The notes beneath the pieces were generated by a model. The model was given only the letters and a program-made list of their open reading frames with translations, was not told the origin of the DNA and searched no databases. Shown in pieces: positions 1,063 to 8,623 of a stretch of DNA of 10,280 nt (positions are counted from its first letter, which is position 1; each line of letters begins with the position of its first letter). Made by a program: the position numbers and the translations under genes. Origin of the DNA: Thermoprotei archaeon ex4572_64 (lineage in GTDB: Archaea; Thermoproteota; Thermoprotei; Thermoproteales; Thermocladiaceae); NCBI GenBank assembly GCA_002254895.1, contig NJDF01000040.1:1-10280 (forward strand), in the 5' to 3' direction.

Positions 1063-2217
1063 TCATGTATTTAGAATCACTATACACGGAATGGCATGAA
1101 TATTTAGAGGAAATCTATCAAGAAGTAGAGGTGGTATGTAGTGATTACAGAGAATCTGAATGTTACTATATCTGTGAGTGGTTATGGAGTGTTCAGTATT
1201 TAGTATGATCATTCCAAAGAGCACCTCTTTAATAGTAATGTCTACGTTTTTTAAGTTCTTAACAATATCTACAGTACATTCTTGAAGAATATCTTTCACA
1301 TCTCTTACTAAACTAATAAACTTGTCAATTTCAAGATTAAGAATTGCTTGTCTAACTTTTCTAAGCATTAATCTAAGCTTCAGTAGTGAATCTAAACTAT
1401 ACTTTAACTTCACTATCTTCTCAACAAGTTCAATACTTGGCTTAGCATTTATACTCGGTAATTTGACAAGTTCTCTACACATAAGTATAAACTTGGCTGG
1501 TGTGAGGTCTTCAAATTTAAAATTGCATAAACTTGCTAACTCGCTATACCTTAGACTTACTTGTGATGCAAGTTTAAGTATAGGTTCTATAAGGAGTTCA
1601 TGAGATTTCTGTAAGAGAATTTTTCCAAGTTCCTTATCTTTTGAAAAAGCTTTAAGTACTCTATATGCTAGGTCTTCAAGATTAAATATTCTTAAATCGT
1701 AAAGATACTCCCCATACTTTAAATAATCATCACTATCAAGTATGAGCTTAATCTCATCAATACAGTAATCAATGCTGTATTGTGGATACTCGATAAAGAA
1801 CTTACCTATAAAGTCCTGACTTAACCTATCTGTAAGTGAGTATCTTGCTAGAATTGAAATCACCATCAACTTTCTAATACCATTTGAGATGTATGGTAGG
1901 GATGAGTCAACAACTTTATACAGGTTAATTAATTGAATCTCATTACTGAAGTTATTAATGATGTAGTTAATTAATTTCGAGATCTCACTATGAGCTTGAA
2001 TACGATCAAGAGGTATTAGCACAACATCACTGTAAAGTAGAAGATCGAGCAAATTGTTGTCAAGTACGTCCACATCACTAGATTCACCATTCCATAAAGT
2101 GTACATTTTGTCGTTAAGTTTAAGTTCTGGAAAAATCTCGTTAAGACTTATCTTCCCTCTACTCCTTAATTTATGAAATATTTTGACTAAGTGATCATCA
2201 ATTTCTAAGTTATGCAT
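1063..2217 (-). CDS. Unrecognised helical protein coupled to tetraether lipid synthase
   Basis: I do not recognise this 384-codon ORF. It reads as a soluble, leucine/lysine/isoleucine-rich, probably all-helical protein with no signal peptide, no clear membrane segment, no Cys-metal motif and no nucleotide-binding loop. Its ATG lies inside the last codons of the tetraether lipid synthase gene (8-base overlap, ATGCATAA), so the two are almost certainly one transcript and translationally coupled. The context suggests an accessory role for that enzyme, but this is inference. The last 50 or so residues (after KEVLFGMIIL) look unlike the rest: rich in His, Pro, Cys and Ile, and lying where purine bias shifts to the other strand. 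A one-base error or real frameshift near 1210-1240 could mean that the true protein ends at the TGA at 1211-1209 in the neighbouring frame. Confidence 0.75.
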   Translation of the reverse strand: MHNLEIDDHLVKIFHKLRSRGKISLNEIFPELKLNDKMYTLWNGESSDVDVLDNNLLDLLLYSDVVLIPLDRIQAHSEISKLINYIINNFSNEIQLINLYKVVDSSLPYISNGIRKLMVISILARYSLTDRLSQDFIGKFFIEYPQYSIDYCIDEIKLILDSDDYLKYGEYLYDLRIFNLEDLAYRVLKAFSKDKELGKILLQKSHELLIEPILKLASQVSLRYSELASLCNFKFEDLTPAKFILMCRELVKLPSINAKPSIELVEKIVKLKYSLDSLLKLRLMLRKVRQAILNLEIDKFISLVRDVKDILQECTVDIVKNLKNVDITIKEVLFGMIILNTEHSITTHRYSNIQILCNHYIPPLLLDRFPLNIHAIPCIVILNT

Positions 2218-3879
2218 AACTAGTTACTGTTTTTCCAGGATTTCTAGAAAGCCATTCTTTAACACTCATTGAGTACTTCCTCTCAATTTCCTCTCTATGG
2301 AAGTTATTCAATGTGCAGAACGGTATGATTCTACCATCAGGTGTGGCATAGTGTATTGTACATCTTCTAACTCTCTGTAAGTCATAGTTAAAGACATCCA
2401 TAAAGTGCATAATACCTAGACCCACAACATTGAACATGAAGTCTCTAAGTGCTGCATAGTCTCTTTTAAGAATAACTTCAAGTAGTAAGTTTTTAACAGT
2501 CTTATGCTTCACATACTTAATTAACTTCAGTAACTTCACTTTAGCTAGATGTTTCCATAAACCTCCCTTAGCTGCTGTGCTATATACTTCCCATGAGAGT
2601 TTTTCAAATGCATCAACATCTACAAGCTTAGTTATAGGTATGGCTCTCTTCTCATCCTCATCATAATATACAAAGGCTGAGGCACCGCATACGGGATTAT
2701 TTGTGAAGAGTGGTTTTTCTTTACCTGTAATTACTTCTAAAGCTTTAGCGAAAGCTACAGGCCAGTTTACTGGTCTCCAATCCCATCTAGAAATCACACC
2801 GTTAGTCTGCTTCTCAATTTCTATAATTACGTCAGGTATTGTTATTCTTAATCTTCTGAGTTCCTCTTTAGAGTATTCTCTAGCTCTACCTGCAAAAGCT
2901 ATTGGTTGAATATTTACCCATCTCACAACATCTCTATTCTCGATAGCAAACTTAACAATTTCACCTAAATCTTTATCATTAAATTCCTTAGCTGCAGTAA
3001 CTACAAGTACTACAGATTTATGACCAATCTTTCTAGCATTCTCAATAACTTTCAATCTTGTCTTGACGTAAGCTTTAGGATCGTACTTTCTATATCTTAA
3101 AATCTTATCGTTATTTTCATTTAGAGTATCACACTGTAAGTATATGGTTGACATTCCAGCTTCCATAAGTGCCTTATAGTAGTCAATATCGTATGCAAGT
3201 CTAATACCGTTAGTGTTTACTTCAACATGGTCGAAACCGTACTTCTTAGCTAATCTAATCATTTCAGGTAAGTCATTTCTAAGTGTTGGTTCACCACCAC
3301 TAAACTGAATAGCATTGGGTGCCCATGGCTTCTCATTCCTAAGTACTCTAAGCATAGAATCAATCTCTTCAAGACTTGGCTCATACACGTAACCACTAAC
3401 AGCTGCATTTGCAAAACATATGGGACACCTCATGTTACATCTATTAGTCACGTCTATGATGGCTAATATGGTGTTTGATCTATGTATTGGACATAAGCCG
3501 CAAGCGAAGGGACATCCCTTACGTTCTCTATAGTATTTCCAGTCAGTATTTGGATTTGCGACTCCACATCCTAAATGTTAACTCTATCCCACTGAATGTA
3601 GTAGTAGTACATCTCTGCATCTCCCCAGTAAAGATCTGTAAAGTAGCCATGTTCTGGACAGTACTTTCTCATCCATATAGCATTATCTTCCTCATAAACT
3701 ACGGCATTAATTACTTTAGTACATACTGGACACACTGACAGAGTTGTTTTTACAATCCTAACATCACCTTCAAGTCTGTACCTAACTTTCAATCTCTCCT
3801 GTAGATTTCGATCTAGAATGTATCTCAAGTATTGTGATGGAATGTTGAATTTACTTAAATCGACTAGTTTATACTTCAC
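2210..3879 (-). CDS. tes: Tetraether lipid synthase (Tes), radical SAM enzyme, frameshifted
   Basis: Read through one frame change this encodes about 556 residues of the MJ0619-like radical SAM family, shown in other archaea to be tetraether lipid synthase, which couples two diether lipid tails into membrane-spanning biphytanyl chains. The first frame (3879-3574, GTG start) carries C50PVC53 and C74PEHG; it then hits TAG at 3573-3571. The downstream frame from 3574 continues the family sequence with GCPFACGLCPIH (Cys 123, 127, 130), the radical-SAM triad CNMRCPIC (Cys 148, 152, 155), the SAM-binding GGEP motif, and the C-terminal RCTIHYATPDGRIIPFC cysteine pair. All cluster ligands are therefore retained. 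The missing base lies in a short T run (ATTTAGG; ATTTTAGG would restore the frame). A TATA-like CTTAAATTTAAAC (3916-3904) sits about 31 bases upstream of the GTG. Either a sequencing error or a real frameshift is possible. The next gene overlaps its stop. Confidence 0.85.
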
Positions 3880-7191: not shown

Positions 7192-8003
7192 ATGACAAGT
7201 AAAAAATGTCATTACTGTAATAAGACTGCTATAGTGAGGATTCCCTACATCAAGTTAAGACTCTGTAAAGATCACTTTATTCAGTATTTTGAGCAAAAAT
7301 TTGTCAGAACTGTAGAATCGCTTAACTTGTTTAAAGGTGTTAGAAGAGTTGTTCTAGGCTTTTCTGGAGGTAAGGATAGTTCAGCACTTCTATATCTGCT
7401 ACATAGGTATTCAAAGTTCTTCAATCTTGAAGTACATTCTGTACACATAGATTTAGGAATAGAAGATTACTCAAAGCAGTGTCTCACCATAGTTGATAAA
7501 GTAGAGAGCAAGTTAGGTATTAAATGTATGGTCGTTAAGGTTAGAGATTATGGATTCACCATAAGTGACGTTAAGCGTCTTGAAAGTAGAATAAAAAGAC
7601 CTGTATGTTCTGTATGTGGTATTGTTAAGAGGTATATACTCAACAAGGTGGCGTTAGAATTGAAAGCTGATGCTGTTATTACTGCTCATAATATGTAGAG
7701 CTTCTAGAAATACCTCACGTAAATACTAAATGTCCATACTATAGTTCAAGCAGAAAACCTCTACAACAATCACTTAGAGAACTACTTACACAAATTGAGA
7801 GTAAGTATCCAGGAACTTTAGTAAATATGGTGATGAATTACTTAAGAAATGTGCATCCAATACTTAACAGACATGCAGGACGTGGAGATGTTAAGAACTG
7901 CTTAATTTGCGGTATGCCTACACAGAAAGATATATGTACATTCTGTAGAGTTAGAATGAGAATTAAGAACCTAAGTGATGAGCGTTCCTCAGCTGAAGAG
8001 TGA
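7192..8003 (+). pseudogene. ttuA: TtuA-type tRNA 2-thiolation enzyme, internally deleted
   Basis: Members of this family (TtuA/Ncs6-like PP-loop ATPases, about 300 residues) thiolate tRNA uridines, U54 in the case of TtuA, which stabilises tRNA at high temperature. Frame one (7192-7698) has the N-terminal zinc finger Cys6/Cys9/Cys25/His28, the PP-loop SGGKDSS (58-64) and the cluster pair Cys139-x2-Cys142. It ends at a TAG directly after AHN. The second frame (7692-8003) resumes with YVELLEIPHVNTKCPYY, which supplies the third cluster Cys, then SKYPG and a C-terminal zinc finger CLICGMP...CTFC. By comparison with Pyrococcus TtuA about 50 residues are missing between these parts, including the conserved LDDE that follows HN, together with a frame change. 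Everything outside the gap is well preserved, so the loss is recent or is an assembly artefact. Which paralogue (TtuA or Ncs6-like) it was is not certain. Confidence 0.8.
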
Positions 8004-8140: not shown

Positions 8141-8157
8141 GTTTAAAGCTTAAAAAG
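8141..8157 (+). promoter_or_regulatory. TATA-like box of the decarboxylase gene
   Basis: GTTTAAAGCTTAAAAAG is the best TATA-like stretch upstream of the ATG at 8201. Initiation about 26 bases downstream would start the mRNA near 8175-8180, giving a leader of about 20 bases that contains the CCCCC tract. A second TATAA at 8161-8165, inside an inverted repeat, is an alternative that would shorten the leader to about 12 bases. Confidence 0.4.
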
Positions 8158-8220
8158 GGGTATAACCCCTATCATAAAAAATCCCCCTACTTTAGATGAA
8201 ATGTGGGGGGTAACCCACAT
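8156..8220 (+). promoter_or_regulatory. Nested G/C inverted repeats over the decarboxylase leader and start codon
   Basis: In AT-rich surroundings there are three stems. First, AGGGGT (8156-8161) pairs with ACCCCT (8165-8170). Second, ATCCCCC (8181-8187) pairs with GGGGGGT (8205-8211), with the start codon in the loop. Third, ATGTGGG (8201-8207) pairs perfectly with CCCACAT (8214-8220), burying the start codon. The second and third stems both use 8205-8207 and exclude each other. This resembles a two-state translational switch, or operator dyads at the DNA level. Confidence 0.55.
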
Positions 8221-8623
8221 AAATAGAACAGACAGAGAGGACGCGATAGTTTATGGTACACATATATACGGTAGTCTATATGGATGTAGTGCAAATTTGC
8301 TAAGAGATGAGGAGTATCTAATTAAAAAGGTTAGAGAAGCTGCAGAACTTGCAAATTCAGTAATAGTATCAATATTTTCATACAAGTTCGGTACGCATAG
8401 TGGCGTATCTGTTATTGCAATAGTAGCTGAAAGTCACATATCAGTACACACATGGCCAGAGTATGAGTATGCAACTATTGATGTATATACATGTGGTTTT
8501 CGAGCTAAGCCTATAATTGCCTTCGAATATTTAGCAAAGTCATTAAATGCTAAAAAGATTGAGGTATATATTAGTGATAGATCGCTCTATAATAGGGCAA
8601 GTTTATTAAGAACACTTTATTAA
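8201..8623 (+). CDS. speH: Pyruvoyl-dependent S-adenosylmethionine (or arginine) decarboxylase proenzyme
   Basis: This 140-residue protein belongs to the small prokaryotic SpeD/SpeH family. The self-cleavage site is between Glu77 and Ser78 in VAESHISVHTWPE; Ser78 becomes the pyruvoyl cofactor, and His83 and Cys98 (YTCG) are the expected processing and catalytic residues. AdoMet decarboxylase supplies aminopropyl groups for spermidine and longer polyamines. In Crenarchaeota a paralogue has become arginine decarboxylase, and the two cannot be separated here by eye. The family usually begins near VYGTHIYGSLYGC (residue 17), so about 17 N-terminal residues are extra. No other in-frame ATG, GTG or TTG lies between, which leaves 8201 as the start even though it sits inside an inverted repeat. 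No strong Shine-Dalgarno sequence precedes it. The gene is followed after 82 bases by hxlB, which seems to have its own TATA-like box. Confidence 0.9.
   Translation: MWGVTHINRTDREDAIVYGTHIYGSLYGCSANLLRDEEYLIKKVREAAELANSVIVSIFSYKFGTHSGVSVIAIVAESHISVHTWPEYEYATIDVYTCGFRAKPIIAFEYLAKSLNAKKIEVYISDRSLYNRASLLRTLY

Follow-up and report, generated by a model that had tools for sequence, protein, structure and literature searches.

AdoMet decarboxylase (AdoMetDC) carries out a key step of polyamine synthesis. In archaea, operators of the Lrp-type, Phr and similar kinds overlap the BRE/TATA region or the start site. We know of no regulator with a GGGGG(G)T site, and a literature search that covered few subscription journals found neither such a regulator nor any account of how the level of archaeal AdoMetDC is controlled, or of an element like the one described here.

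Crenarchaeal AdoMetDC is described as duplicated, with one copy turned into an arginine decarboxylase (PMC10407285). When nutrients are limiting, S. acidocaldarius is reported to have lower levels of the mRNAs for arginine decarboxylase, speB and spermidine synthase (PMC6335949), AdoMetDC not being named beside them in the accessible part of that report. Human polyamine-pathway mRNAs are reported to carry G2-quadruplexes with a proposed feedback by polyamine and a hairpin alternative in AZIN1 (PMC6067879), and in Drosophila CNBP is reported to control Odc mRNA via G-rich elements (PMC8439652).

An AdoMetDC-fold gene and its paralogue

The window, a stretch of 10,280 nucleotides from Thermoprotei archaeon ex4572_64 (assembly GCA_002254895.1, contig NJDF01000040.1), contains an ORF at 8201-8623 that matches TIGR03330 with 125.6 bits (cutoff 75.65) and PF02675 with 117.9 bits (cutoff 25). 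By family profile match it is an AdoMet decarboxylase (SpeD/SpeH) fold. We read the gene as AdoMetDC and not as the arginine decarboxylase paralogue. The ATG at 8201 is the sole in-frame ATG, GTG or TTG between the preceding stop and the domain. The closest protein found (P0001) is 96% identical to the window's protein, and those of loci L034-L036 are 57-58% identical over the match.

Related genomes usually carry two AdoMetDC-fold genes. One gene type, which includes the window's, has a YxC motif, and the other has mostly YxVD or YxID. We take the Cys type to be AdoMetDC and the other type an arginine decarboxylase paralogue, using YxC as a heuristic; that the window's enzyme acts on AdoMet is presumed from this Cys.

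Two other genes in the window are broken. Upstream of the AdoMetDC gene, a TtuA-type tRNA 2-thiolation gene (7192-8003, + strand) has a first ORF covering profile positions 2-157 and a second piece in another frame (7728-8000) covering 220-289 of 292, the two separated by only ~30 nt; a pseudogene, a deletion or an assembly fault could account for this. A tetraether lipid synthase (Tes) match (2210-3879, - strand) is split over two ORFs, with profile positions 2-55 in 3571-3879 and 92-485 of 486 in 2210-3451. With two genes broken in the same window, errors in the sequence are a possible cause.

G and C blocks at the start of the gene

The initial annotation drew attention to G/C blocks around the start codon, and every letter and coordinate that it gave was right: 8156-8170 reads AGGGGTATAACCCCT, 8181-8187 reads ATCCCCC and 8201-8220 reads ATGTGGGGGGTAACCCACAT (Table 1). 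The blocks do stand out in this AT-rich DNA, as had been remarked, since window GC is 0.35 and the only two runs of at least five G or C in the whole window are those at 8183-8187 and 8205-8210. A perfect 7-bp inverted repeat alone is not rare: there are 26 in the window with loops of 3-20, three of which have at least four G/C in the arm. At the place equivalent to 8156-8170, GGGGGTATA(A/G)C stands in L034, L035 and L059.

Table 1. Features around the start of the AdoMetDC-fold gene (window coordinates)
Feature	Position	Strand	Basis
Inferred BRE/TATA region TTTAAAGCTTAAAAAG of the AdoMetDC promoter	8142..8157	+	TTTAAA at -59, TTAAAA at -51 from ATG
Inverted G/C-run pair AGGGGT-ATA-ACCCCT, just 3' of the TATA box	8156..8170	.	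Letters
A-rich box CATAAAAAAT	8173..8182	+	Letters; position relative to TATA spacing
CCCCC run, an inverted G-run copy and the C arm of the alternative stem in the initial annotation	8183..8187	.	Letters, fold
Start codon followed by G-run copy TGGGGGGT	8201..8220	+	Letters, comparison with relatives
GGGGGG run, codons 2-4 of the gene	8205..8210	+	Equivalents in T, P and Sulfolobaceae-like loci
AdoMet decarboxylase-fold gene, 140 aa	8201..8623	+	TIGR03330, PF02675

A G-run accompanies the AdoMetDC-type gene in relatives

We collected AdoMetDC-fold loci from the classes of genomes G001 (81 genomes) and G004 (229 genomes), taking part of the matches only; the first 30 loci of the G004 class and a further 60 loci were the best-scoring matches listed, and the sample leans to closer relatives. 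Gene type was set by one residue, the Cys of YxC, and not by clade; a tree was drawn and left unused for the counts. Left out of the counts were L001-L003 (the same genes as L034-L036), L004 and L038 (a single gene, the second copy in G004), L263 and L267 (their domains were parsed too short; runs of at least five G, hereafter G5+, are visible by eye in each, and L285 and L267 are one gene), one paralogue whose upstream stretch was too short, and 8 of 29 Sulfolobaceae-like loci (L305-L309, L311-L313) in which the motif was not found.

Within 125 nt upstream of the domain anchor, 93 of 114 Cys-type loci had a G5+ run and 96 of 114 a G or C run; for the other type the figures were 6/47 and 15/47. 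Stretches of 125 nt elsewhere in the same loci contained a G or C run in 214/1339 and 57/442 cases. In a non-redundant set to which the 21 Sulfolobaceae-like loci were added, a G5+ run lay upstream of 85/101 AdoMetDC-type genes versus 5/42 paralogues, and C runs upstream of 28/101 versus 10/42. In these sequence comparisons, the two gene types are told apart by the G-run and not by the C-run. Background stretches of 130 nt had a G5+ run in 242 of 3060 cases. Of the 114 Cys-type loci, 18 showed neither a G nor a C run over these 125 nt; a G5+ run begins a little beyond that limit in 10 of them, and the other 8 lack one within 160 nt. No G5 run was seen by eye in the 120 nt upstream in L005, L022 and L027, which lie outside the two classes.

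The run is limited in length. Of 184 G5+ runs, 179 were five or six long (n=92 for 5, n=87 for 6, n=4 for 7 and n=1 for 8), and T directly followed 108 of them. Background sequence totalling 400 kb contained 2034 G or C runs of length 4, 457 of length 5, 73 of length 6 and 2 of length 7. A short motif enriched over background and paralogues in this way would suit a transcription-factor operator.

The run also keeps a register with the promoter in part of the set. It stood directly 5' of a TATA-like box in 47/101 regions, and the gap was 4-5 nt for 39 of the 54 runs that had a box within 15 nt downstream. A box followed 2-8 nt after 49 runs, against a mean of 13.0 and a maximum of 23 in 200 random placements. 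More G-runs cluster 24-47 nt downstream of the TATA centre in the same 47 regions, in which 13 of 15 C-runs lie 4-27 nt downstream of that centre, between TATA and start. The site is inverted in L077, and L076, L214 and L253 have an inverted pair. The fixed promoter register that an operator would be expected to show is thus seen in 47 of the 101 regions and not in the rest; the window's promoter-near run comes after the TATA box, as in L034-L036, the commonest arrangement being before it.

Groups of relatives differ in how the runs are placed; the group names are tentative. In the T group (Thermoproteus-like, six loci), C5 or C6 stands just before the ATG and G6 just after. The P group (Pyrobaculum-like, ten loci) has G4 or G5 directly 5' of TATA, plus ATGGCGGGGGG. 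The V group (Vulcanisaeta-like, nine aligned loci) has a run of three to five G immediately ahead of the ATG, with CCCAA or CCCCAA immediately behind it. All 21 parsed Sulfolobaceae-like loci have a G5+ run within 125 nt upstream of the domain; 18 of these read ATGATGGGGG, followed in 16 of the 18 by T.

Some arrangements stood apart. Nine promoters (L179, L181, L183, L186, L193, L219, L246, L251 and L253) have the TATA between G5-G7 and C5-C7 runs as a large inverted repeat, several with a further G-run near the start. A clade of L187, L199, L204, L205, L239, L240 and L254 has a G5-G6 run ~156 nt upstream of the domain. In most of these loci the run directly follows a TATTTTTATA-like box, and another TATA-like box stands close to the gene; a distal promoter is possible there. 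In L047 (genome G053), which was kept out of the groups because its start was left unassigned, many upstream G-runs are 1-3 G longer than those of close relatives and the start frame is shifted, possibly through a sequencing fault.

Promoter spacing and inferred transcription starts

All transcription starts were inferred from TATA spacing, that of the window being taken ~26 nt 3' of the box. In ATG-started ORFs of four genomes, TATA-like boxes cluster at -31 to -26, a leaderless spacing, with one extra position at -44 in the background ORFs of G042. T and P orthologues have their boxes at -29 to -26 from the ATG (T group alone, -29 to -27). TATA-like boxes lie at -59 and -51 in the window, at -57 to -52 in its group X, at -55 to -53 in 8/9 of the V group (the box of L050 was unmatched), at -55 to -52 in V2, and at two places, -52 to -50 and -28 to -25, in group C.

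From the distal boxes, transcription in the window would start at about 8171-8181, and the C arm at 8183-8187 would then be among the first bases of a short leader. The A-rich box at 8173-8182 could be another TATA box, placed as in leaderless genes, or else mark where a short leader begins; were it used as a promoter, the C arm would lie upstream of the start. The T group has its TATA box at the spacing of leaderless genes, which puts the C arm upstream of the inferred start; it would then be missing from the mRNA. The initial annotation had described a third hairpin at 8156-8170. Its letters are present, but it is probably untranscribed because it sits between the TATA box and the inferred start, and we read this inverted pair as a putative regulator site, probably outside the transcript.

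Nucleotide constraint at the start codon

The window and L034-L036 share the 13 bases ATGTGGGGGGTAA from the start. Codons 2, 3, 5 and 6 do not vary among the P-group species (10/10), and codon 4 is shared by 9/10; in the domain of the same genes the third base was kept in 0/9 four-fold columns with invariant first two bases. The T-group domain kept it in 1/37 four-fold columns, and the first codons of T differ between species. In 20 Sulfolobaceae-like loci (counted without L291, for which a wrong start was chosen), the Gly codons within the first five codons are GGG in 20/20, and GGG makes up 20 of the 129 Gly codons in the rest of the genes. The species in these codon counts are not independent, and the figures give no exact probabilities.

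The residues after the start vary by group (MWGV, MRGD, MRGV, MAGGV, MMGV) but the G-run is retained, and this speaks for selection acting at the nucleotide level. The post-start run holds its place relative to the AUG (about +5 to +11) while the TATA distance varies. An ATG followed by G5+ within 3 nt occurred in 29/101 AdoMetDC-type versus 0/42 paralogue regions, and in background ATG ORFs of four genomes the stretch from +4 to +18 had G6 in 0/182 and G5 in 2/182. The earlier suggestion that the coding start doubles as a regulatory element thus holds in part: frozen third bases and changing residues speak for a signal at the nucleotide level, and not for the RNA switch that was to carry it.

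Eukaryotic AdoMetDC mRNAs have an upstream ORF. A five-codon ORF in the window (ATGAAATGTGGGGGGTAA, 8196-8213, + strand), out of frame over the start codon, is reminiscent of this; by eye, L034-L036 have none, and we set the candidate aside.

Matches to the promoter patterns lie mostly at one gene

The pattern GGGGGN{1,5}AANYTTAWAAG gave 17 hits in 15 genomes, corresponding to 13 distinct sites in 13 genomes, and an AdoMetDC-fold match begins shortly after each of the 13. The pattern was absent from two genomes, and its reversed control had 4 matches. These 15 genomes had been picked largely because their promoter showed the pattern. In 25 genomes, GGGGTNAANYTTWTAWR occurred at 26 sites, 19 at the AdoMetDC gene and 7 at unrelated genes (reversed control, 3 matches). 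Since some of these promoters had served to design the patterns, finding them at the gene is expected, and the information lies in the near absence elsewhere.

In the searched form (G-run plus TATA patterns), a polyamine regulon was not seen: as we read their translations, the genes at the 7 other sites are unrelated. CCCCC..ATG..GGGGG was likewise dropped as a specific signature, its reversed control being about equally common in 16 genomes.

RNA stems at the start codon

The perfect 7-bp stem ATGTGGG/CCCACAT that opens at the start codon is present in the window, and RNA folding agreed with the initial annotation that it and the CCCCC/GGGGG stem exclude each other. Each of the three stretches that include the C arm, 8150-8230, 8176-8240 and 8179-8225, has the CCCCC/GGGGG stem as its minimum-energy fold (z versus shuffles, -1.79, -1.34 and -1.66), and the start-codon stem appears in a predicted fold only without the C arm (8188-8240; z -2.78). 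The AUG had been placed within a 17-base loop; in the minimum-energy fold the loop does not take in the whole codon, as its G is paired.

Conservation of the stems in relatives, named in the initial annotation as a check, was not found for the start-codon stem: it forms all 7 pairs solely in the window and between 2 and 5 of them in the five X-group relatives, so that by this comparison the stem is specific to the window. A C-run/G-run stem is possible in L034-L036 (CCTCC or ACTCC) and in the T group; 9/10 P-group loci have no C5 run. For the predicted transcripts of 39 orthologues, group mean folding z ranged from -0.88 to +0.76 and that of background genes from -0.37 to +0.08, with the start misplaced for L050 (folded from the ATG) and for L044, L045, L052, L054 and L061 (folded from 39-41 nt upstream). 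Folded with its C arm, L061 has a strong stem (-34.6 kcal/mol) but a z of only -0.75. No Rfam family matched the whole window at gathering scores.

Weighing the explanations

We lean towards the view that the G/C blocks are sites of roughly the form GGGGG(G)T, through which a DNA-binding regulator, most simply a repressor, would control transcription of this one gene. Copies in either orientation lie around the TATA box, transcription start and start codon of the AdoMetDC gene. A putative regulator would occupy those near the BRE and the start region and would govern assembly of the basal transcription machinery at the promoter; in the simplest form, a repressor would compete with TFB/TBP or RNA polymerase when polyamine is plentiful. 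The comparison of sequences shows conservation, limited run length, TATA register, near gene-specificity and nucleotide constraint at the start codon, and from these we infer protein binding, the sign of regulation and the ligand. Polyamine feedback is probable for AdoMetDC, being a natural guess for this enzyme. The main point against a purely transcriptional reading is the start-codon run, whose place is fixed relative to the AUG despite a varying TATA distance and which points to translation or RNA for that copy. Moreover, the run immediately precedes a TATA-like box in only 47/101 regions, 18/114 Cys-type loci lack any G or C run over the 125 nt examined, C-runs separate the gene types poorly, and copy number and spacing vary. 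The start-codon copy may also act in translation, and a mixed element, an operator with a translational signal in that copy, is quite possible.

An element acting wholly in translation, in which the start-codon G-run would serve as a ribosome-contact signal or a variant of a Shine-Dalgarno-like one, with the runs farther upstream being something separate, is unlikely. It would account for the fixed place relative to the AUG in both leaderless and leadered genes, for the 29/101 versus 0/42 contrast and for the frozen codons after the start. GGGGGU can also pair with the anti-SD core CCUCC with one wobble. Yet the upstream run in register with the TATA box would be left unexplained, and the rarity of such runs in background ATG ORFs argues against a general signal. 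We think it very unlikely that, as the initial annotation had it, C8183-8187 or CCCACAT (8214-8220) pairs with the G-run in a two-state switch that toggles access to the AUG. The two stems are energetically good, each excluding the other, the order C-run, ATG, G-run recurs in six T-group loci, and CCTCC or ACTCC stands at a similar place in L034-L036. Against this, relatives do not keep the start-codon stem, folding is no stronger than background (in the comparison with six misplaced starts), the T group is leaderless by TATA spacing, its C arm preceding the inferred start, a C5 run is absent from nine of ten P-group loci, and Rfam gave zero matches in the window at gathering scores. The switch was therefore rejected as the main explanation.

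Sensing without a protein, by polyamine acting directly on DNA G-tracts or through a DNA or RNA G-quadruplex, has a slim chance. Several G-runs at a polyamine gene, the near single-gene specificity and human polyamine-pathway mRNAs that are reported to sense polyamine via G2-quadruplexes (PMC6067879) are in its favour, and it would explain why so conserved an element serves almost one gene. In this reading, spermidine or longer polyamines would reshape the dG-dC tracts of the promoter, or the mRNA's G-rich 5' end, and thereby directly determine how much AdoMetDC is made. However, four G3+ runs occur in 12/101 regions with loops of at most 15 and in 1/101 with loops of at most 7, a scarcity on which we rejected a G-quadruplex as the general element; the plus strand of the window has one G4 and one G6 run here, not four, and the sharp length limit and following T suggest sequence-specific recognition. 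Least probable is a by-product of G-rich codons and base composition without a regulatory role. Several start-side runs do encode Gly, and the pre-domain residues vary in length and sequence, but non-coding copies stand in register with TATA, the gene type contrasts with its paralogue (85/101 vs 5/42), the background rate is low (242 of 3060), third bases are frozen, and GC in the window is 0.35.

Comparison with known systems

An element kept at the AdoMetDC gene in many members of two archaeal classes offers a handle on the regulation of that gene. Should no protein turn out to bind the site, direct sensing by DNA or RNA would have to be considered. As in Lrp-type and Phr operators, the sites are short, repeated or inverted, and so placed that a protein on them would encounter TFB, TBP or RNA polymerase; unlike those operators, the pattern matches here are almost limited to one gene.

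The protein family and its duplication are those of the crenarchaeal AdoMetDC/arginine decarboxylase pair (PMC10407285); that report, in its accessible part, treats enzyme evolution and no regulation, and here the G-run is largely limited to the AdoMetDC-type copy. With the human G2-quadruplexes (PMC6067879, in part), the locus shares G-rich elements in polyamine genes and a proposed polyamine feedback; the human elements are in mRNA, whereas copies here lie upstream of TATA and the four-run motif is confined to 12 of 101 regions. CNBP and Odc (PMC8439652, in part) differ in being an animal case that concerns translation through an mRNA coding region; the likeness is that of a nucleic-acid-binding protein reading G-rich sites in a polyamine gene.
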